Origin: Bdellovibrionales bacterium
GTDB lineage: Bacteria; Bdellovibrionota; Bdellovibrionia; Bdellovibrionales; JAGQZY01
DNA: 53,038 bases
Direction: 5' to 3'
Assembly (NCBI GenBank): GCA_020435205.1
Contig: JAGQZY010000008.1
Location: 1-53,038 of the forward strand
A program made the translations under genes and the position numbers. Below, piece by piece: positions 28,210 to 38,066 of this stretch; position 1 is the stretch's first letter; each line of letters starts with the position of its first letter. The notes beneath the pieces are model-generated. The model was given only the letters and a program-made list of their open reading frames with translations, did not search any database and was not told the DNA's origin.

Positions 28210-29421
28210 ATGAAAAATATTTTTAATTTTAAAACCATTGAGCCTTGGCCCGAGGTGAATATTCAAGAATGGCGGGACTGGCGCTGGCAATTCCGCAATT
28301 CTTTGCGCAGCCGAGTTCAATTTGCTGAACACTTTCAAATCACCCTCGAAGAAGAGAAAGGTTTTGCCGGCCTTGATAAAATTTTTCGTGTGCAATCCAC
28401 ACCCTATTACCTCTCCCTGATTGATAAAGGTGTTGCCAAGGATCCTATTCGCCAAATGGTGTTTCCCCATGGGGCCGAACTCACCGAAGGGGCGCAACAG
28501 ATGTTAGATCCTCTTGGTGAAAAGCAAAATTCTAATCGGCCTACGCACCGACTGATCCATCGCTATTCCGATCGAGCTTTGTTTTTAGTGACGGATCTGT
28601 GTAGTGTTTATTGCCGATACTGTACACGTAAACATTTTACTGGCAGTGACCAAGTGTTGGCCTCAAAAGAACAGCTCCAAGCTGCAGTGGACTATGTGGC
28701 CGCAAGGCCTGGCATCAAAGAGATTTTATTTTCTGGCGGAGATCCTTTAACTCTATCCAATGAAAAGCTAGAAGTTTTTTTAAAAGCTTTTTATGAAATA
28801 CCCCATGTGGAACTGATTCGGGTGGGCACTCGCATGCCGGTGGTTGCGCCTATGCGCATCGATCAAGATTTGGTGCATTTGTTCAAAGAGTACAAGCCTG
28901 TTTACTTGATGACCCACTTCAATCATCCCCAAGAGATCACCAAGGATGCGGCCATGGCCCTCGAAAGCTTAGTGGATAATGGTATCCCCGTTTTCAATCA
29001 AATGGTTTTGCTCAATGGAATCAACAACCATCCCGCCATTGTTTACGCTCTCTCGCGTCGACTTTTATGGTTGCGGGTCAAACCTTATTATATGTTTCAA
29101 GCCGACCCTTCGCCGGGGACGGATGCCTTGCGCACTCCCATTGAGCAGTCACTACAGATTCAAAAAGAACTATGGGGACACACCTCAGGCCTTGCCATGC
29201 CTAATTATGTTGTCGATATTCCTAAAGGTGGGGGCAAAGCGCCGTTAGTGCCTGACTTTCTCAAAGAAAGATCCAAAAACAAATGGTCTTTTGTTGGTTG
29301 GGACGGAGTCTCTGCTGATTACATTTCGCCGGCCCAAGTTGTTGAACCGAACCCAGAAACCCTAGCTCCTTATCTTGAAGAATGGCGACAAGTCCAATCC
29401 AGCCGTCACCCCAATTTATAA
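28210..29421 (+). CDS. Lysine 2,3-aminomutase-like radical SAM protein (KamA family)
   Basis: 403 residues. The radical SAM cluster motif is C131-x3-C135-x2-C138 (in TDLCSVYCRYCTRKH); SAM-binding GGDPL follows; the PLP lysine is K343 in IPKGGGKAPL. These are the hallmarks of lysine 2,3-aminomutase, which makes beta-lysine, and of its relatives. The segment corresponding to the canonical D-L-x-x-G-x-x-H-F-R-T reads ADPSPGTDALRT, so His-Phe is replaced by Ala-Leu and substrate choice could differ. The usual partner (beta-lysine acetyltransferase) is not adjacent. It sits 18 bases after a terminator; the ATG has only GGTAGTGG before it. Convergent with the next gene. Confidence 0.85.
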   Translation: MKNIFNFKTIEPWPEVNIQEWRDWRWQFRNSLRSRVQFAEHFQITLEEEKGFAGLDKIFRVQSTPYYLSLIDKGVAKDPIRQMVFPHGAELTEGAQQMLDPLGEKQNSNRPTHRLIHRYSDRALFLVTDLCSVYCRYCTRKHFTGSDQVLASKEQLQAAVDYVAARPGIKEILFSGGDPLTLSNEKLEVFLKAFYEIPHVELIRVGTRMPVVAPMRIDQDLVHLFKEYKPVYLMTHFNHPQEITKDAAMALESLVDNGIPVFNQMVLLNGINNHPAIVYALSRRLLWLRVKPYYMFQADPSPGTDALRTPIEQSLQIQKELWGHTSGLAMPNYVVDIPKGGGKAPLVPDFLKERSKNKWSFVGWDGVSADYISPAQVVEPNPETLAPYLEEWRQVQSSRHPNL

Positions 29422-29423
29422 GT

Positions 29424-30434
29424 CTAATAGATTAAATGGGCTTGGCGGTGTTTGGACTTCCAGATGAAGCCATCAAATAAGTAATGGCTATAAAGCGGAG
29501 TGAGGTAGAGTCCAACGCCTAAAGCGATAAGTAGGCGTTCAGTGAACTCCTGGCTTCCTTCCTCGATCCAGGAAAATAAAAACTCTTCACCAAACCACTC
29601 TATAGTGCCGGCAACAAGGGCAGTGATGGCAAGGATGACCATGGCGGGGACAAACTGTTTCAATCTTGGGTTTGCAAAGGTGCGATTCATGGAAAATCCC
29701 ATTAAAGCCCAATAACCTATGCCATGAGCTACAATCATCGGGCCGATAATTTGTAAATAGTTGTCACCAAAAAAAAGTCCACTCGAATAAGCTGCGGCAG
29801 GAGTCAGTACGGACAGCACTCGCCCAGGTGACCACTGTCTATTATTTTTAAAATAACAAAAGGATTCGTAAACGAGCCAAGACAGCATAGCCAACATAAA
29901 AATAGCTAAGCTTATTTTATAGTAAGTGAGATTAGGGTGATAAAAAACCTCCTGGCGATTGTAGATAGAAAGCTCACCAAGATTACGGAAATGAAAACCT
30001 ACAGCCGGGGTGATCATAAGGCTATAAAGAAAACGGGTGGGCCAGGGAGAAAAATTTCCTTCTTTTTTTTGATACCAACGAGTGATCCCGTAAAATTGGC
30101 GAAGGTTGTGGTAAAGGGTCGAGTAGGTAACAAAACTCCAAAAATAAAGACCACCGCTTAAATACCAAAGAGCACATGTTATTAAGATTAAAGGTGGTGC
30201 CCACAAATAGTAACTTTGGCTGGCTCTCTCTTGCCTATGCCCATGGGTGCGATAAAAGGTGAGGTAAACGTGACCAGAATCAATCACATGGAAAACTATG
30301 AATAAAACCACCATATCCACCCAGGACGTAGGATGGATGATCTTGGCTACGATGATGGTTATATAGGCTGGGAGAACTAGGAATAGAAAATCTTTGTAGC
30401 TTTTGTTGAAGATCCAATATGAGTCTGGGGTCAT
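29424..30434 (-). CDS. Polytopic membrane protein, unknown function
   Basis: 336 residues with about eight hydrophobic segments. Conserved-looking His clusters occur in loops: FHVIDSGHVYLTFYRTHGH (about residues 48-66), LYHNLRQFYGITRW (about 107-120) and a C-terminal SHYLFDGFIWK. Such His-rich boxes on a multi-pass protein recall membrane di-metal hydroxylases and related uncharacterised families, but this is only a resemblance. It is translationally coupled to the upstream prepilin-like gene (ATGA at 30431-30434) and is the last gene of that operon, so it may act on, or with, the pilin-like proteins. Confidence 0.75.
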   Translation of the reverse strand: MTPDSYWIFNKSYKDFLFLVLPAYITIIVAKIIHPTSWVDMVVLFIVFHVIDSGHVYLTFYRTHGHRQERASQSYYLWAPPLILITCALWYLSGGLYFWSFVTYSTLYHNLRQFYGITRWYQKKEGNFSPWPTRFLYSLMITPAVGFHFRNLGELSIYNRQEVFYHPNLTYYKISLAIFMLAMLSWLVYESFCYFKNNRQWSPGRVLSVLTPAAAYSSGLFFGDNYLQIIGPMIVAHGIGYWALMGFSMNRTFANPRLKQFVPAMVILAITALVAGTIEWFGEEFLFSWIEEGSQEFTERLLIALGVGLYLTPLYSHYLFDGFIWKSKHRQAHLIY

Positions 30435-32170
30435 TTCGTCGTGCAGGTATGAGGATCATCAAACATACATGGGCAGGAGTTATTGGATAAACACTTTTTA
30501 TCGCACTTTCCAATTTTCACACATGTTTTGGCATCAGCATCACTGAGGTCTTCTGGAACTCCGTCCCCTTGGCCAACAATTTTACGTTGGACATAATCGA
30601 TTCCGTTGTCTTTGTATTCAAAACGCAAAGTCACGGTCGCCTCAAAAAACATATTTTCATCCGGTTCAAATTTAACTGGAAGCACACACTTGCCACCAGC
30701 TGGTAAGGGTCCATTGCACTGGCCCGCAGAACCATCCAATTCGTAAGAAAATGGGGGGTCAATTTCGGTGCTCTCGTAGATCGTGGCCGTGGAGGAGCCG
30801 ACGTTAGAAACTTCAAAGTAGTGAGTTTTGCTGTCCAAAAACTGAACCGTTTCAAAATTATATTCAGGGGCATCTGAGATAACAATAGGGGGAGGTTCTG
30901 ACTGCTCACCTTCGCGCACACCGATGCCCTTGACTTTTCTGTAGGCCGCCATGTCGACACCCACCATTCTGTAATTCAACTGAATTTCAGACTCGTACTT
31001 TTTGCGATCCGTCGGGATGAATTGAACTTCGATCTTACAACTTTCCCCTCTAGGCAGGATCTCGTCGCAGTTTCCTTTCTCTCCCGGAGGACTGCCGCCG
31101 GTAAAGTCAAAGGGGGCATCCATCCCACTGCCTCCAATAAATTCAGCATCATAATCATCGGACATATTTGTCACTTGAAAAACATGTTTGGCCACATTGT
31201 TTAAAACAACGTCACCGTAATCGTAAAGAGGGCTTTCGGAAATGACCAAGTAGGCATCAAAGCCAGCCTTAAAGCTGCTGAGATCCCGATCGGGATTGCA
31301 CCAAGAGCAGATGTAGTTATTTTGGCCGTTAAACACTCCAAGCTGCTGAACAAAATTGTAAGGAGGTTTGCACAGATTGGAGTTTTTTACCATCCCCTGT
31401 TCGTCGTTAAAGCAAAGGCGATCAGGTTTACATTTCCTAGCGGGGTCCGTTTCCCACACGTCGTAAAAACCACCATAGGACTCACAGGTGGCAGCGACGG
31501 TGTTAGCACCATAACAAGTAGCAATGGTGGGGGTTGCTGTTGTGGTATTAACATTGGCGTATAAAAGAATCTGTAGGTTCGGATTCAACATAGGCAGAAT
31601 GCGTTCGGGTTCTACTGGGTTCACGCCAGAGGTCGGATCATAGTCAGAAAGGTTTATATAAAAGTTTTTTGGCTGCAAATAAACTCTGAACATGTGAGTG
31701 TTGAGCAAAACAGGTTTTCCAGCGACAACGAGATCTGGTGGTAGGTTGGGACCGGTGGGTTGCACCGTTTTAAAGTTTTCGCCGGTCCAAGTCTCAACCC
31801 ACCCAGAAGTGTTGCGCAGATAAACCCGTTCCAATTGAATGGATTTATTCATTGACTCCCAGCCAGATTGAATGGGCTTAGGAGTGCTGCTGGATTTGTC
31901 TTCGCCGTATGTCGTGTTAATAGTGACGTCAGCCTCTTGATCAGCAATGAGAGGAACGGGAACTCCTTTAAAGAGGGAGGTGCAAATTTCTGGATCTTCC
32001 AGCTTTTCGCGGAGAGAAGCCACCATGAGTTCATATTCTTTTCTTTGGCTATTGGAAGCCGATCTCTTCGAGGAATTAGCTAGGTATCCGAACACAGTGG
32101 CAATCACTGCGCTGAGAACTCCAACTGAAACGAGCACTGTCACCAGTGCAGAACCTCTTTGATTCATCAT
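30431..32170 (-). CDS. PilX-like prepilin with C-terminal choice-of-anchor (Hydin/ASPM-like) domains
   Basis: 579 residues. The N-terminus MMNQRG|SALVTVLVSVGVLSAVIATVFGYL has the Gly and hydrophobic helix of a type IV prepilin, but residue 5 after the cut is Thr, not Glu, as in some minor pilins of the PilX/GspK kind. Two repeats of about 110 residues follow (about 320-420 and 440-540), each with F-x-V-x-N and C-x-x-x-L-P-x-G-x-x-C-x-x-x-V-x-F-x-P, the pattern of ASPM/SPD-2/Hydin (choice-of-anchor D) domains. The last 30 residues hold six Cys. ATG 32170 overlaps the upstream gene stop and has GAGGTG before it. Probable minor pilin or pseudopilin carrying a large exported head. Confidence 0.78.
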   Translation of the reverse strand: MMNQRGSALVTVLVSVGVLSAVIATVFGYLANSSKRSASNSQRKEYELMVASLREKLEDPEICTSLFKGVPVPLIADQEADVTINTTYGEDKSSSTPKPIQSGWESMNKSIQLERVYLRNTSGWVETWTGENFKTVQPTGPNLPPDLVVAGKPVLLNTHMFRVYLQPKNFYINLSDYDPTSGVNPVEPERILPMLNPNLQILLYANVNTTTATPTIATCYGANTVAATCESYGGFYDVWETDPARKCKPDRLCFNDEQGMVKNSNLCKPPYNFVQQLGVFNGQNNYICSWCNPDRDLSSFKAGFDAYLVISESPLYDYGDVVLNNVAKHVFQVTNMSDDYDAEFIGGSGMDAPFDFTGGSPPGEKGNCDEILPRGESCKIEVQFIPTDRKKYESEIQLNYRMVGVDMAAYRKVKGIGVREGEQSEPPPIVISDAPEYNFETVQFLDSKTHYFEVSNVGSSTATIYESTEIDPPFSYELDGSAGQCNGPLPAGGKCVLPVKFEPDENMFFEATVTLRFEYKDNGIDYVQRKIVGQGDGVPEDLSDADAKTCVKIGKCDKKCLSNNSCPCMFDDPHTCTTK

Positions 32171-33081
32171 TGAGTACACCTCAAACAAATAAAATATTCT
32201 TGTGTGTTAGTTACGCGGAAAGAGCATTTCTTCCCGCAACTTTCCGTCCAAGAGTTTACAAATTTTCCAGTTTGTGAGGCAATGGAACCCACCGGGCAGG
32301 CTAATTTTCTAGAAATGGCATTGGGGACTGGCGGAGGGCAGGATGTCGTTCTGGGGGTATCACAAACAGAAGTGATGTAATGCCCAAACATCATGCACTG
32401 CTGTTGGGGTTTGCAAAGTCCAGTGACTGGGTCCACTTCCGCTCCAAGAAGCGCGCAGGAGTCCTGAGTGGTCATTTCCACCTTACAGCCAATGATCTGT
32501 CGAGTCCCTGGATCAATATACATAGGGAGGTCGTAAAATCGGGGAGCGACAGTCCCAACCACCCCATCATTAGGGGCACCCGCCTGGGTGCCAGCTCCAG
32601 CACCATTTTGCATATTGAGTAAATCAAGAACCAGAGTGACGCGCACATTAACCTTGTTGTAGGTCGCTGTACCTACGAGAACCGGTTGTGGAGCCATGCC
32701 CGAGTCCTCAATAGTTAAGGAGCGAATAGCAATTCCACGATCCACTTCGACCCCGGCTTTAAGCTCGGGAGCATTAATCCCAGGCATATTGGTTTTGAGT
32801 TCAAGTTCTTCGGGCGATCCCTTTGCTGGAAGAATGAACGTATTCTGGCAAGCACCGGCGCCATTGGGATTACAAAATAGGGAGCTACAGGTTCCATCGT
32901 TGTAGAGCATTCGACCAAAACTGGTGGCAAAGTCATTGGCACGATCTCGATTCTCCACATTTTTTTGAGATTTCATCATTTCGACAAAGGCGGTGGATAA
33001 AACAACACTGACGATACCAAAAATACCGACGGCGACGATGATTTCAACTAAGCTCATTCCTCGGGTTGATTTTACGTTCAT
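32167..33081 (-). CDS. Type IV prepilin-like protein (PilW/pseudopilin type)
   Basis: 304 residues. Class III signal: short leader MNVKSTRG, then MSLVEIIVAVGIFGIVSVVLSTAF with the key Glu at position 5 of the mature protein, so a prepilin peptidase could cut after Gly8 and N-methylate. The head has many Cys (about 14), suggesting several disulfides in the periplasm. First gene of a three-gene operon with the PilX-like protein and the membrane protein; the genes overlap by four bases. It has a visible promoter at 33124-33152 and GGGG before the ATG. Likely a minor pilin or pseudopilin; the assembly system is elsewhere. Confidence 0.85.
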   Translation of the reverse strand: MNVKSTRGMSLVEIIVAVGIFGIVSVVLSTAFVEMMKSQKNVENRDRANDFATSFGRMLYNDGTCSSLFCNPNGAGACQNTFILPAKGSPEELELKTNMPGINAPELKAGVEVDRGIAIRSLTIEDSGMAPQPVLVGTATYNKVNVRVTLVLDLLNMQNGAGAGTQAGAPNDGVVGTVAPRFYDLPMYIDPGTRQIIGCKVEMTTQDSCALLGAEVDPVTGLCKPQQQCMMFGHYITSVCDTPRTTSCPPPVPNAISRKLACPVGSIASQTGKFVNSWTESCGKKCSFRVTNTQEYFICLRCTQ

Positions 33082-33123
33082 GAATTCCCCAAAACTTAAA
33101 AAATTAAAGACCTTACGTCCCCT

Positions 33124-33152
33124 ATTATTTTACCATGGAAGCTAAGGTTCAA
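33124..33152 (-). promoter_or_regulatory. Sigma-70-type promoter of the pilin-like operon
   Basis: On the minus strand TTGAAC (33152-33147), 17-base spacer, AATAAT (33129-33124). The start site would fall about 35 bases before ATG 33081. Good spacing and a strong -35 support it. Confidence 0.55.
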
Positions 33153-33233
33153 AGCCTGCTTTTTGGGGTCCTGTGCCATTGACTCGATCTTGCATAACTG
33201 GGGAGAAACGCTAACCTCTAATAAAGGTTCGAA

Positions 33234-33989
33234 ATGAATGATAAAAATCTATATATAGCAGCAATAACCTGTCTTCTTGTTGGCCTTGCCTTGATTATTT
33301 TCGCCAATAGAAAAAGGTTTATGTCCCAGCCTGAATCAACTGTGATGACTCAAACAGGGACAAAAGCAGCATCGAGATCAAAAAATCATCCCGAACAAAC
33401 TCAGCGAGTGATTCCTGAACACCCCTCCATGCCATCGACCATCAAAGACACTCACGGCGACAGTAAAAGTTTTGATGTGGTCCGAAAAGAAAAGTCAGAA
33501 GCGGCTAAAAAAACGTTCCAACAAATGGGATATTTTGAGGGTAAGTTTCCAACTAATTTGCAGTTTATTCCAAGTGAGTTTGATGATGAAGTGGCTGCTG
33601 TGTACGGCTACGATGACAAGTCGGGATTAGGCCTTACTGCGGTGGCTGCGCCGGGACAGATATCGAAGGAGCAAGTCGTACCCTATATTAAACAGAATAT
33701 GCAGTGGATTGAAAACACTAAAGAAAATCCCATCAAACAAATTGGTCAGCCCCAGACATTACCTCCTCCGCCTGAGGGTTCTGGAATTACTGCTGGTACC
33801 ATGTGGTCAGGAACTTTAGCAAATGGTGATGATGTTCACGTCGTCATGCTCGATCGCGCTGATAAAAAAGGGTCTTACTTTTTTATGTATTCAGGTCCTA
33901 AAGAAAATTTTTACGATAACGAAGGTTACTTCGACGAACTTTATCAAAATTTTAAAGCTCTTCCAGCCCCTCAAGACAAGTCAAAATGA
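33234..33989 (+). CDS. Membrane-anchored hypothetical protein, first gene of four-gene operon
   Basis: 251 residues. One N-terminal membrane helix (about 6-25, YIAAITCLLVGLALIIFA) with little before it, then a polar linker to about residue 85 and a folded region (about 95-245) with E/D-rich helices, VYGYDDKSGLGLT and YFFMYSGPKENFYD. The body is probably on the outer side of the inner membrane. No family recognised. It is 8 bases upstream of the aminopropyltransferase-like gene, so the two are likely co-transcribed. The ribosome site is AAAGG. Confidence 0.7.
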   Translation: MNDKNLYIAAITCLLVGLALIIFANRKRFMSQPESTVMTQTGTKAASRSKNHPEQTQRVIPEHPSMPSTIKDTHGDSKSFDVVRKEKSEAAKKTFQQMGYFEGKFPTNLQFIPSEFDDEVAAVYGYDDKSGLGLTAVAAPGQISKEQVVPYIKQNMQWIENTKENPIKQIGQPQTLPPPPEGSGITAGTMWSGTLANGDDVHVVMLDRADKKGSYFFMYSGPKENFYDNEGYFDELYQNFKALPAPQDKSK

Positions 33990-33997
33990 GGTGAGGC

Positions 33998-36193
33998 GTG
34001 CCGTCCCTCATCCTATTTTTCCTCCTTTCTCTTTTACTCGCTGCCAATGGATTTATTGTTGAATACAACCTCAGTCAGTGTCTCTCTGCTGTTCTCGGCG
34101 GGACAATTATCCGCTATCAAACCTCAGTAGGTATTTTTACATTTTCTCTTGGTTTGGGTTCTTTATTGTATTTACCCCTTTCTAAAAAGTTTATTGGGCG
34201 CACACTTTTGATTTTCTGTAATTTGTGTGTGGGACTCCTGGCTTGGCTTGGCCCCCTCTTTGTCCAATGGCTCGACCCCTTGGGATATCAATCCTTGATC
34301 TTATTGTGGCTATGTTATCTTCCCATCGTGCTGCTCGGAGTGGTCACTGGGCTTGAGTTGCCCAGCCTGTTTTCCATAGCGGGCGACATCAATAAGGATT
34401 TTAACCCCGATCAAAGCCTTCTGCTTTATGCTGACTATTTAGGGATGTTTTTAGTGAGTTTGGCTTTTCCCTGGCTTCTTATTAAAGGTGGGATATCTCT
34501 GGTATCAAATTTAAGTTTGCTGCTGATGGCTTGCATCTTTTTAATTCTATTCTTCATACCAAAAAACCAATTGGACTCAGATAGGTCAAGAGCCTCCCAA
34601 TGGCCCAATGTTACGATGACTTTTCTTTTGTTCCTTACTTCATTTCTGAGTATTTCCTATGAATTGAGTCTAGCCAAACTTTTCAGCGAGCTTTTTTATA
34701 ATGAAGTTCTCGCCCATAGTTTCACTATTGGCTTTTACCTTTTAGGCCTCGCTGCGGGTGTGTTTAGCTTACGAAAAGGTATTCACGATGCCAAAGATCA
34801 ACTCATAAAAAACGAGCTTCTCCTCTCAGTTTTCGCTCTTCTGGTCTATGCTGGGATATTTGCAATGGTTATCCTGTGGAAGTTGGTAGGAAAATCCTAC
34901 TTGCTCGATAGTGACATGATAGGTCTTCTTCAAGTTTTTACTATCCTTATTGGCTTTTTCTCAGGACGGGAGCTGCCTTTATTGCTTTCCTGGATTCATC
35001 AAGATCAAAAAGTTTCACAAGCTATTCCACTGTCTATTAATTATTTTGGTGCTCTTTTTGCCGGTTTTCTTGTGCCACTCGTGTTCTTTCCTGTTCTGGG
35101 AGCCGCATTGAGTTTAATATTTTTAGCCACAGTTAACTTATTAGTCGCCATTGTTTTGGGACTCGTATTTGGATATTTTCGCTCTTCATTGCGCTGGCTT
35201 GTTCTTCCTCCCCTTCTTGTTGTGGCCTTACTTTCTGTGCGCAGTCAAAAATTCCTGGAGCAAACATATCTTAAAACTCTGTATCACAACATCATCATTC
35301 CCAATCTTTCTGTAGAGTCACTCCGTACCTTTTTCCGAGCAGAAACTCACCTGCGAAATGTGATTCGATTGCGCAGCCTTTATCAAAATATTGATCTGGT
35401 GAGAAACCAATTGCCCTATGAAGGAGGGGGCGAAGGCGAGTTAACTTTATACTTGAATCAACAACCACAGTTTTCTACAGACAATTGGACTTTGTATCAC
35501 GACAGCTTTGCTTTAGCTGCAAGTCAAATCCTTGGTCGGCTCCCTCAAAATGTTCTTATATTAGGTGGAGGTGATGGCCTCCTGGCGGGGCGATTGCGTC
35601 ATCACGGTTATAAGGGGCCTATTGATTTAGTGGAATTAGACGAGCAAATGGTAAGACTGAGTTCTGAACATCACCAAATTTCTCAGATGAATGGGGGTAT
35701 ATTTTCTGACCGTGGTGTGCGGGTGATTTATGAGGATGCTTACTCTTGGCTTAAAAAAAATCATTATCAATACGAGGCCGTTTTTATCGATTTTCCTTAT
35801 CCTTCAAGTTTTGAATTGTCTCGGCTCTATAGCCGAGAGTTTTACCAATTGGTCCTCAATCACCTTGCCAGTGGAGGTGCAGTGACCTTGGATGCTCCTA
35901 TTCGTTTTTCAGTTGATAGTGATTCTGGACCCTACTTAAAAAGTTACCAAGCTTTGATGGCTACTCTTCATTTTTCTGGTTTTTCGACTGTTTTTCCCAT
36001 GGGACCCGTAGAACCATTTATAGTCGCATTCAAAGAGAAGAGAGAGGTTCAATTTGATTACAAAGAACTCGAGGCCGTTGAGAATCATTCCTTTGTCAAT
36101 TTTTTAGGGATATCGTCTCGCTTTCCTGACTATCAGCCCAGCCAGAAGGATGTGAATTCCATTTTTCACCCTCAGTATTTGGAGTTGCGATGA
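33998..36193 (+). CDS. Membrane-fused spermidine-synthase-like protein
   Basis: 731 residues. Residues 1-425 contain about eleven or twelve membrane segments in a transporter-like arrangement; residues about 480-731 form a SAM-dependent aminopropyltransferase-like domain with L-G-G-G-D-G at 522-527, an acidic ribose-binding VELDEQMVRL, and YEDAYSWL. The polyamine-site loop that reads D-x-x-D-P in spermidine synthase is here D598-F-P-Y601-P, with the second Asp changed to Tyr. LSRLYSREFY follows, as in membrane-type SpeE proteins. The GTG start at 33998 has AGGTGAGG close by. Product and substrate are unknown; it could modify a lipid or small amine rather than make spermidine. ATGA overlap with the next gene. 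Confidence 0.8.
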   Translation: MPSLILFFLLSLLLAANGFIVEYNLSQCLSAVLGGTIIRYQTSVGIFTFSLGLGSLLYLPLSKKFIGRTLLIFCNLCVGLLAWLGPLFVQWLDPLGYQSLILLWLCYLPIVLLGVVTGLELPSLFSIAGDINKDFNPDQSLLLYADYLGMFLVSLAFPWLLIKGGISLVSNLSLLLMACIFLILFFIPKNQLDSDRSRASQWPNVTMTFLLFLTSFLSISYELSLAKLFSELFYNEVLAHSFTIGFYLLGLAAGVFSLRKGIHDAKDQLIKNELLLSVFALLVYAGIFAMVILWKLVGKSYLLDSDMIGLLQVFTILIGFFSGRELPLLLSWIHQDQKVSQAIPLSINYFGALFAGFLVPLVFFPVLGAALSLIFLATVNLLVAIVLGLVFGYFRSSLRWLVLPPLLVVALLSVRSQKFLEQTYLKTLYHNIIIPNLSVESLRTFFRAETHLRNVIRLRSLYQNIDLVRNQLPYEGGGEGELTLYLNQQPQFSTDNWTLYHDSFALAASQILGRLPQNVLILGGGDGLLAGRLRHHGYKGPIDLVELDEQMVRLSSEHHQISQMNGGIFSDRGVRVIYEDAYSWLKKNHYQYEAVFIDFPYPSSFELSRLYSREFYQLVLNHLASGGAVTLDAPIRFSVDSDSGPYLKSYQALMATLHFSGFSTVFPMGPVEPFIVAFKEKREVQFDYKELEAVENHSFVNFLGISSRFPDYQPSQKDVNSIFHPQYLELR

Positions 36194-36999
36194 AAAGACG
36201 CCTCTTTGTCAAACAGCTCGGGCTTTTAATGACTTTAGCTCCTCAAAAGGCTTTTGCTTACCCAATTTCTCAGTTACTTGGGGAGGCGAATCCGGCCTAC
36301 ATTCAGCAGTACTTCCATCGAATGAAGAACTGGTATAGCCAGCAATTCTTTCCCATTCAGAAACTTTGGACACGTAGCGAAGGTCGCTTTATCCAATCCT
36401 GGGAGCAAAGGCTAACCAGCTGGGGGTTTGATCTCAAGGACTTTGGATTTGTCGAAAACTTTAATTTTTCCCACAGTGTAAGACCCCAGTCAGTCAGACA
36501 TGATCGCTTTTTATGTGCTAGTGAAAATTGGTCTTCCGCCGAACAGGCCGAGATTCGAAGCTTGATAAGAGCGCGGGGTCAAGTTCCCCCAGATATGGAT
36601 CGTTGCCTAGCCATGGGTTGGGAAGGGGATAGGTTTAAAATTTATTATCAGGGAAAATTGCCAGATCAATTTCATAGCCTTGTCCAAGATAAAAATCAGC
36701 CTCATGTTCTATTTCATCATATTCAGGGCGGAAAAATTGTTAAGGAAGGGGTGATTCAGGCGACTAGAGAGTTCCCCCTTCCTATTGCTGGAATGATTTC
36801 ACAAAATGTGATCTCAGCTCTTAGTATCCATGAGCTTGGAGGAAAACCTCGCTACCATTACCGCCTGAAGTCCTTCTTTTTGCCCTTGCTCAGTAATCAA
36901 GCTATTGTTCTTTCTTCCCAGCACTTAAAAGAATTTCATCAAATGAATGATTCTATGCAATTGATTTCAAGTCAGGAGTACAAACTATATTACCCCTAA
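36190..36999 (+). CDS. Exported hypothetical protein with Tat-like signal
   Basis: 269 residues. The N-terminus MKRRLFVKQLGLLMTLAPQKAFA has R-R-L-F-V-K, close to the twin-arginine consensus R-R-x-F-L-K, and an A-x-A cleavage site near residue 23. The mature part has many aromatic residues, and Cys near residues 101 and 132. No family recognised. The gene overlaps the spermidine-synthase-like gene by four bases and runs into the acyltransferase frame, so it belongs to this operon. Tat export would mean folding, perhaps with a cofactor, in the cytoplasm; that is inference. Confidence 0.68.
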   Translation: MKRRLFVKQLGLLMTLAPQKAFAYPISQLLGEANPAYIQQYFHRMKNWYSQQFFPIQKLWTRSEGRFIQSWEQRLTSWGFDLKDFGFVENFNFSHSVRPQSVRHDRFLCASENWSSAEQAEIRSLIRARGQVPPDMDRCLAMGWEGDRFKIYYQGKLPDQFHSLVQDKNQPHVLFHHIQGGKIVKEGVIQATREFPLPIAGMISQNVISALSIHELGGKPRYHYRLKSFFLPLLSNQAIVLSSQHLKEFHQMNDSMQLISSQEYKLYYP

Positions 37000-38066
37000 A
37001 ACAGCAGCGATTCTATTTATTAGATTTGGTTCGATTGATTGCCATGTTAGCGATTGTTTATTTTCATATTCAAGAGTCTACTTTTTATATTGATGACTAT
37101 GTTTTAAGTGGAACCAATCCGATGAATATCTTTTTTGAAGCCTATTGTCGTTGGTTTGCCTTTTCTGGTTTTTTAATCGTTGCTTTGACTTTTTTCTTGA
37201 TTGGATGGAATGGTCTTAGTGCTCGCAAATTGAAAACTTTATTGGCTGTTTGTTTTATTGGTATTTTGACTCTCATATGGGTCAATGAAGAGCTTGGCCA
37301 GATTTTTTTAGAGTGGGATATCTATGCCTACCTTATCGTCAGCTTGTTATTGATTGCATTTTTAAATAGCTTTCCAAAAGTCCTCTTTGCATCGGGTGCA
37401 ATATCCTGTCTAGCCTTAGCTTTACCCAGGTCCTTTTATAGCTTTCCCCAATGGTCAGGAAAATGGTTTTACAACCCTCTTTTTGGTGATTATTTGCAAG
37501 AGGGAGGGGGCTCTTGGCCCTTGATTCCTTGGACGGGCCTTCCTATTTTATTTTTTGCTTTGGGGCAGTGGTTAAAAAAATCAGCAGCGTCGTTGCCGTA
37601 TCAAGAACAGTTTTTCCGAAAAGAAAAACTGATTTGGTTGGTTCTCGCCCTATTGGCGATCCCAACGATAGGTGGCTATTACGCTACCCCAGTGGGGCCT
37701 GGATTTTCTGAGTTTGTTTTCAATCGCCCCCCCATTATTTTGTTCGGTAATCTCTTTTGGCTTATTTTGGCTATCCGAGTTTCACTCTATCGCCCCTGCA
37801 ATGAGGCGATAGGGAAACTAAAAGCTTTTCAAATTCTTTCTCGTTGGCATCTTTCTAGGAATTTTTTCCTTTTCTATTTGGTTCATATTTTTTGGGTGGG
37901 AGTCTATACCAATTTTCCTCAGTGGTTTCGCGATCATCCGCAAATGTATTGGTTGGTCTTTTTGCTAACCTTCCCACTGACAGAATTGAGCTGCGAAGCT
38001 TTGACTCGAGGAGCTCAGTTTTTAAAGGAGCGCTTAGGAAAAACTAAGACTGCAGCTGAAGGTTAG
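36987..38066 (+). CDS. Acyltransferase-3-like membrane protein with probable non-standard start
   Basis: 359 residues if begun at ATA 36987, about ten membrane segments. The family-like N-terminus QQRFYLLDLVRLIAMLAIVYFH matches the usual R-x-x-x-L-D-x-L-R-x-I-A of acyltransferase 3 and its His, but lies upstream of the first normal start codon (TTG 37026). The frame is open back to 36951, with no ATG, GTG or TTG there. AGGAG (36974-36978) is 8 bases before ATA 36987. So a rare start codon, coupling to the upstream gene, or a sequence error must be considered. The family O-acylates sugars or other exported molecules. Its 3' end overlaps the convergent helicase gene by 23 bases. Confidence 0.72.
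   Translation: MLPLKQQRFYLLDLVRLIAMLAIVYFHIQESTFYIDDYVLSGTNPMNIFFEAYCRWFAFSGFLIVALTFFLIGWNGLSARKLKTLLAVCFIGILTLIWVNEELGQIFLEWDIYAYLIVSLLLIAFLNSFPKVLFASGAISCLALALPRSFYSFPQWSGKWFYNPLFGDYLQEGGGSWPLIPWTGLPILFFALGQWLKKSAASLPYQEQFFRKEKLIWLVLALLAIPTIGGYYATPVGPGFSEFVFNRPPIILFGNLFWLILAIRVSLYRPCNEAIGKLKAFQILSRWHLSRNFFLFYLVHIFWVGVYTNFPQWFRDHPQMYWLVFLLTFPLTELSCEALTRGAQFLKERLGKTKTAAEG

Follow-up and report, generated by a model that had tools for sequence, protein, structure and literature searches.

The window analysed here is a stretch of 53,038 nucleotides from a member of the Bdellovibrionales (contig JAGQZY010000008.1 of assembly GCA_020435205.1), in which the genes g1 to g4 at positions 33234-38066 form one half of a larger block that also comprises the divergent minor pilin genes pilin1 and pilin2 and probably the gene c4. 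The block links two cysteine-rich pilins to an anchored protein (g1), a two-block transmembrane aminopropyltransferase (TM-APT; g2), an exported protein (g3) and an acyltransferase-3-like protein (g4), and the sequence of the TM-APT has a retained donor site and a remodelled acceptor site. We tentatively read the block as a pilus-tip module in which minor pilins are served by a membrane aminopropyltransferase of their own, for which the N-terminal amine of the pilins is the leading candidate acceptor, a reading that we hold at somewhat less than an even chance. That the mature minor-pilin N-terminus is 3-aminopropylated by the TM-APT with decarboxylated S-adenosylmethionine (dcSAM) as donor, besides or instead of its methylation by the prepilin peptidase PilD, is the more speculative part of this proposal and taken by itself is unlikely; this would be a new modification, possibly an undescribed chemical tag on the fibre protein itself.

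The TM-APT and its active site

The preliminary description of these genes, made from the DNA sequence, had recognised g2 as a membrane-fused aminopropyltransferase-like protein, and profile comparisons bear this out. The gene (33998-36193, forward strand; 731 residues, GTG start) matches Spermine_synth (PF01564) at 4e-16 and scores 269 bits against NF002956 (PRK03612), below the cut-off of 472. Its product consists of two homologous seven-transmembrane (7TM) blocks and a catalytic domain, so that the 7TM-aminopropyltransferase fusion is present. Comparison with relatives delimits the first block, tmN, to residues 1-195 (33998-34582); it is a separate gene of about 230 residues in most relatives and is fused to a SpeD-like domain in the Bacteriovoracaceae. 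Residues 196-731 (34583-36193) carry the second transmembrane block and the aminopropyltransferase domain, as assigned from PF01564, alignment, AlphaFold and Foldseek. The two blocks are taken to be homologous because the stand-alone tmN open reading frames (ORFs), when aligned with the fused g2, fell on the second block. The AlphaFold model of g2 has a pTM of 0.89, and Foldseek matches it to the solved aminopropyltransferases 1uir and 4yuv.

Residue roles in the active site were assigned from published work (PMC12812037, PMC3725402). Alignment shows that the residues of the dcSAM site are retained throughout the clade: Q463, Q491, Y500-H501, D526 of the GGGDG motif, E546 and D580, among which Q463, D526, E546 and D580 correspond to human Gln49, Asp104, Glu124 and Asp155. 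The aspartate of GGGDG binds the amine of dcSAM, and its replacement in a D103I variant gives a methyltransferase that uses S-adenosylmethionine (SAM) (PMC12812037, PMC3725402). D598, equivalent to the catalytic base Asp173 of the human enzyme, is invariant. The loop that contains it reads D598-F-P-Y601-P, as first reported, with Tyr601 in place of the second aspartate of the D-x-x-D-P motif; this position is Tyr, Phe, His or Leu across the pilin-linked clade, the copy in genome G029 excepted. The glutamine motif after the loop (Gln-x-[ST/E]-S; human Gln206/Glu208) is also replaced in the clade, by D632-x-P; the DUF350-linked outgroup has QSTS. Loss of the second aspartate together with the change from glutamine to aspartate points to a non-putrescine acceptor, and putrescine is probably not the substrate of g2. 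Spermidine synthesis by g2 is doubtful, as had already been suspected from the loop, because DFP[YFHL]P is found clade-wide, the Gln-x-Glu/Ser motif has become D-x-P, and the host genome encodes a separate canonical SpeE.

The two kinds of active site also differ in their gene neighbours. Of the 45 fetched copies in which D-x-P goes with a non-canonical loop, 28 lie beside a pilin gene and none beside DUF350, while for the 43 fetched copies with a canonical loop the corresponding numbers are one and 29. A tree places the TM-APT subfamily and PRK03612 on either side of a 100% branch, in a quick search with some long branches. Two loci carry a second, more degenerate TM-APT downstream of the first (L043, 11545-13200; L116, 7259-9166), which is likely to reflect tandem duplication.

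Supply of the probable aminopropyl donor

An S-adenosylmethionine decarboxylase (AdoMetDC) of family PF02675 was not found in the host genome. A class-2 (eukaryotic-type) AdoMetDC is present there and in 11 of 13 other genomes searched, including every module-bearing genome among them that lacks PF02675, and all 25 non-fragmentary module genomes checked carry one type or the other. Bacterial class-2 AdoMetDC genes are of eukaryotic origin (PMC10407285). In the host (G000:C38:2264-3064, locus L075) and its family (L068), the class-2 enzyme stands in place of SpeD. SAM itself had been favoured as the donor for as long as the host appeared to be without AdoMetDC, and was dropped when the class-2 gene was found.

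In the host, its family and relatives the AdoMetDC gene lies in a row of glycosyltransferase, AdoMetDC, SpeE and TrmH-like genes, and SpeE co-occurs with the module in most genomes. Five module genomes (G084, G077, G122, G119 and G029) encode no PF01564 protein besides the TM-APT of the module, and the first four of these have an intact AdoMetDC. In G122 and G119 the AdoMetDC gene, with its ESS motif, is followed directly by the TrmH-like gene, with SpeE missing between them in junctions that were read directly. Among our observations, this retention of AdoMetDC without SpeE hints most strongly at dcSAM being consumed by the TM-APT. Physical linkage is seen as well: in G084 a speD that retains its serine comes after g4 in the same orientation, and in G029 a speD with the serine changed to alanine abuts the acyltransferase gene. 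Seven Bacteriovoracaceae loci (L113, L119, L120, L127-L129 and L156) have the SpeD-like domain fused to tmN, the pyruvoyl serine of these fusions often being changed to threonine or alanine. Outside the phylum, Omnitrophota and gammaproteobacteria carry cassettes of tmN, speD and the aminopropyltransferase; L136/L180, from a separate lineage, has such a cassette behind a PilX-type gene. We conclude that dcSAM is probably the donor, because AdoMetDC is linked or retained where the TM-APT is the sole recognised aminopropyltransferase. In L061, L115 and L118 a stand-alone SpeD beside the TM-APT has its pyruvoyl-forming serine changed to alanine; these proteins are possibly dead regulatory subunits.

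Conservation of the gene set

The block recurs across the Bdellovibrionota with its pilins, g1, tmN and TM-APT (fused or split), g3 and g4. In the search set of 144 genomes of the class, 27 have copies of the TM-APT module, two of which are fragments at contig edges. All 14 genomes with g1 are among these 27 (hypergeometric P 2e-12), as are 18 of the 19 with strong pilin1 homologues (P 2e-15), P values that ignore phylogeny; the profile used for pilin1 was itself derived from loci of the module. The gene set is thus associated more than by chance, and the gene-neighbourhood search proposed in the preliminary description found the neighbours conserved in relatives. Gene order is variable, with g2 fused or split and blocks inverted, and the partners are constant. 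The named relatives that bear the module are Bdellovibrionaceae, Bdellovibrio sp., Bacteriovoracaceae and Oligoflexia. A variant with a large tip pilin is found in L051-L054 and L061, and in the GC-rich locus L035, which was miscalled by the ORF caller, g4, speD and pilin1 were found by six-frame reading. A single genome of the class has a strong pilin1 homologue and no recognised TM-APT module (G125:C52:22994-23881).

Minor pilins and the extent of the block

Both genes on the reverse strand beside g1 encode prepilin-type proteins. The product of pilin1 (32167-33081, reverse strand), a minor pilin assigned by TIGR02532 and alignment, has the prepilin signal RG/MSLVEIIV with an invariant Glu5 and 11 invariant positions, most of them cysteines; it passes TIGR02532 with 18.9 bits against a cut-off of 16.3. 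That of pilin2 (30431-32188, reverse strand) begins RG/SALVTVLV, lacks Glu5 and has a conserved, cysteine-rich C-terminal domain; alignment and a GspK N-terminal match (0.04) assign it to the GspK/PilX-like tip-cap type, and it also matches NF012200 (7.5e-12) and PF22544 (4e-11). A tip-cap pilin without Glu5 is described in other systems, where pilins are processed at the cytoplasmic face of the membrane and N-methylated there (PMC10191384). The pilin2 of the window differs from that of its relatives in having two further Ig-like domains, of the HYDIN/choice-of-anchor D kind, at its C-terminal end. The host genome encodes two PF01478 prepilin peptidase proteins, the larger of which has a CPKC...C..C N-domain, as judged by eye.

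The preliminary description had treated g1 to g4 as a four-gene operon. The four ORFs are present and run in one direction, and the unit also takes in the prepilin genes at 30431-33081 and probably c4 (29424-30434, reverse strand). The gaps of 8 bases or overlaps described between the genes are correct for g1 and g2, which are 8 bases apart, and for g2 and g3, which overlap by 4 bases; g4 as called starts 26 bases past g3. The 152-base divergent region between pilin1 and g1 (33082-33233) presumably holds the promoters. No promoter consensus of significance was found in it, and scans for promoters and terminators gave counts near or within those of shuffled controls.

We regard c4 as an accessory member. 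It encodes a 336-residue multi-transmembrane protein of no named family, without a match in Pfam and NCBIfam searches, with the motifs DSGHV, HG and HYLFDGFIWK. Its homologues (cluster 4) occur in nine loci, and the protein is also encoded beside DUF350/PRK03612 clusters. In other genomes of the class, five loci (L057, L058, L059, L062 and L066) have a row of DUF350, a canonical TM-APT with the loop DFPDP and an FAD oxidoreductase; a c4 homologue comes next after this row in L057, L058 and L062, which ties c4 to both cluster types. Convergent to c4 in the window lies a lysine-2,3-aminomutase-like radical SAM gene (28210-29421); among the relatives' module loci that we read, none showed this neighbour.

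The partner proteins g1, g3 and g4

The g1 ORF (33234-33989, forward strand) encodes 251 residues, with one transmembrane helix at residues 3-27, in keeping with the anchored protein first described, and an extracytoplasmic domain in which alignment shows a near-invariant R-x-D-x-x-G-x-Y motif. Neither g1 nor g3 matched a Pfam or NCBIfam family, and sequence-profile searches of the PDB found no credible match for either.

The 269-residue product of g3 (36190-36999, forward strand) was expected to be exported, and it has the N-terminal sequence KRRLFVK and an invariant Ala23; a C-terminal YYP is conserved. Structure prediction, which the preliminary description had suggested for these proteins, gave the aminopropyltransferase fold for g2 described above and for g3 a ten-stranded ABBA-type barrel of the prenyltransferase kind (pLDDT 87, pTM 0.80). 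The top 44 Foldseek matches of g3 are all ABBA-barrel prenyltransferases, among them KgpF, PatF, PagF and DciF (probability 1.00 for the best, TM about 0.5). The conserved set of basic diphosphate-binding residues was not seen in g3, where only Arg44 (9/12) and Lys182 (7/10) recur. Because the predicted protein is exported and lacks conserved basic catalytic residues, it is more likely to be a binding or repurposed barrel than a classical prenyltransferase. A single-sequence search had made g3 appear rare, with two other genomes of the class; profiles and operon position place it in at least 11 loci.

For g4 the preliminary assignment to acyltransferase 3 agrees with the R-X10-H motif, and the match to Acyl_transf_3 (PF01757) is weak (6e-5; 22.7 against a Pfam gathering score of 31). 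The motif, as (R/K)-X10-H, is kept in 24 of 25 g4 homologues, that of L039 having lost the histidine. The ORF of this membrane protein was called from a TTG at 37026 to 38066 on the forward strand. A conserved N-terminus, KQQRFYLLDLVR, with its LLDLVR segment, lies upstream of that start in a frame that is open from 36951 (36951-38066), so the TTG is probably too late and g4 probably overlaps g3. Between 36951 and 37025 the frame has no ATG, GTG or TTG, and ATT or ATA are the sole possible starts; the N-terminus may arise from such a rare start or from coupled re-initiation.

A proposed pilin modification and its alternatives

The preliminary description had suggested that these genes could modify an exported lipid, glycan or peptide. 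Our analysis narrows this to a probable aminopropyl transfer, with the pilin as the leading candidate acceptor. We propose that the TM-APT would be an inner-membrane protein whose catalytic domain faces the cytoplasm, where it would take up as donor the dcSAM made by AdoMetDC. Asp598 would deprotonate an amine other than putrescine, and the 3-aminopropyl group would be transferred with release of methylthioadenosine. As acceptor we favour the N-terminal amine that the prepilin peptidase newly exposes on the minor pilins, because this happens at the same, cytoplasmic, membrane face; PilD can otherwise methylate this amine. On the periplasmic side, g4, the exported barrel g3 and the anchored g1 may act on the pilin complex or on its modification.

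Several observations weigh against this proposal. In the Bacteriovoracaceae (L111-L113, L119, L120, L127-L129 and L156) the DFPYP enzyme occurs without recognisable pilins; the loci that were read have an exported protein of about 1,150-1,216 residues without a family and an acyltransferase-3-like gene upstream. These copies therefore argue against a substrate that is a pilin only. PilD of the host has retained its N-domain and may itself already methylate the pilin N-terminus. On the donor side, linked SpeD copies lack the pyruvoyl serine in G029, L115, L118, L113, L120, L128 and L156, orphan SpeD homologues can be ornithine or arginine decarboxylases (PMC10407285), and most of the genomes are draft assemblies, in which an assembly gap may account for a missing SpeE.

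The acceptor might instead be a small amine, such as a polyamine, an aminolipid or another metabolite, which is moved or acylated at the membrane with the help of g4 and decorates the pilus or envelope, the pilins using or carrying the product rather than being the substrate. We judge this the main rival and a serious possibility, though one that falls clearly short of an even chance. It would account for AdoMetDC in the host and its relatives, and in the four to five genomes where the TM-APT is the sole aminopropyltransferase the enzyme might supply a polyamine. Its two transmembrane blocks look transporter-like, as the 7TM fusions of PSP-linked relatives are described to be (PMC11237479), and Asp632 could bind the second amine in place of the lost residue. 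Enzymes of the acyltransferase 3 family commonly acylate glycans or lipids. Yet the aspartate described as contacting the non-reacting amine of putrescine is missing throughout the clade except in the G029 copy, and G084, G077, G122 and G119, the genomes without SpeE, have lost it too; AdoMetDC aside, the module has no constant metabolite gene. If the lost acceptor-loop aspartate is read as loss of catalysis, the TM-APT would be an inactive membrane protein that scaffolds or chaperones the assembling pilin complex, in line with the lack of conserved catalytic residues in the g3 barrel, some dead SpeD copies and the g4 homologue in L039 without its histidine. This is improbable, given that Asp598 and the donor-site residues are invariant among copies only about 30% identical and that AdoMetDC is kept where it has no other user.

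A pilin methylase is conceivable too, since N-methylation of pilins takes place at this membrane face (PMC10191384) and putrescine methyltransferases evolved from spermidine synthases (PMC3725402). These SAM-using enzymes have isoleucine at the position of the GGGDG aspartate (PMC3725402), which is invariant in the TM-APT; AdoMetDC is linked and retained, and the host PilD keeps a methylase-type N-domain, and we consider a SAM-dependent N-methyltransferase very unlikely. The least probable case, to which we give hardly any weight, is that of a normal spermidine synthase whose loop has relaxed and which lies beside pilin genes by chance. The TM-APT shares its fold and donor site with spermidine synthase, and five genomes have no other recognised synthase, but the linkage is seen again in different families that have reshuffled the gene order (P < 1e-11) and canonical SpeE stands alongside in most module genomes. 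Taken together, our data lend partial support to the preliminary interpretation, to which they add the minor pilins, the linkage to AdoMetDC and the barrel fold of g3.

To our knowledge, aminopropyltransferases have been described almost exclusively from polyamine metabolism. The subfamily treated here is membrane-fused and is linked to minor pilins phylum-wide. The TM-APT may explain why AdoMetDC is retained in genomes without a spermidine synthase, and it opens the testable question of whether dcSAM has targets besides polyamines. If the proposal is true, it adds a new protein modification in the phylum of predatory Bdellovibrio-like bacteria. The module also bears on the pilus-tip machinery of predatory bacteria and on the purpose of pilin N-terminal modification, the reason for which a review calls still a mystery after 40 years (PMC10191384).

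Comparison with known systems

In the literature searched we found no pairing of an aminopropyltransferase with pilins in the relevant sense, nor the two-block pilin-linked subfamily with its partners; this gene order was also absent there, in agreement with the preliminary description, which knew of no such system. Individual components do resemble known ones. The two prepilin-type proteins, one without Glu5, recall the GspHIJK and PilHIJK tip complexes, but the pilins of the module have cysteine-rich C-terminal domains and are linked to a membrane aminopropyltransferase. The predicted ABBA-barrel fold of g3 is that of the cyanobactin peptide prenyltransferases PatF, PagF and KgpF, from which it differs in being exported and in lacking the conserved basic diphosphate-binding set; g4 shares R-X10-H with acyltransferase 3 (PF01757) and scores below the Pfam cut-off. 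The catalytic fold and dcSAM-site residues of g2 are those of SpeE (1uir, 1inl, 2o06, 4yuv). Unlike SpeE, g2 is membrane-embedded and is without the second loop aspartate and the glutamine motif, and its predicted acceptor pocket is not of the putrescine type.

A likeness is also seen to PRK03612/NF002956, in which a 7TM block also lies N-terminal to an aminopropyltransferase domain and which is linked to AdoMetDC in some genomes. Such fusions of a spermine-synthase-like domain to a transporter-like 7TM region have been described in DUF350/PspA operons, and it has been suggested that the 7TM-fused family aminopropylates other substrates (PMC11237479). In contrast to PRK03612, the TM-APT has a second transmembrane block (tmN, fused or separate), DFP[YFHL]P where PRK03612 has D[LF]PDP, and D-x-P where it has Q-x-x-S-P. 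The TM-APT also lacks the DUF350 neighbour (0/45 against 29/43; PspA was not searched for), is partnered with pilins, acyltransferase 3, g1 and g3, and forms a separate clade. The 7TM-fused spermidine-synthase-like proteins of PSP/DUF350 operons are thus known, and what appears to be new, from the papers searched, is the two-block, pilin-linked subfamily.

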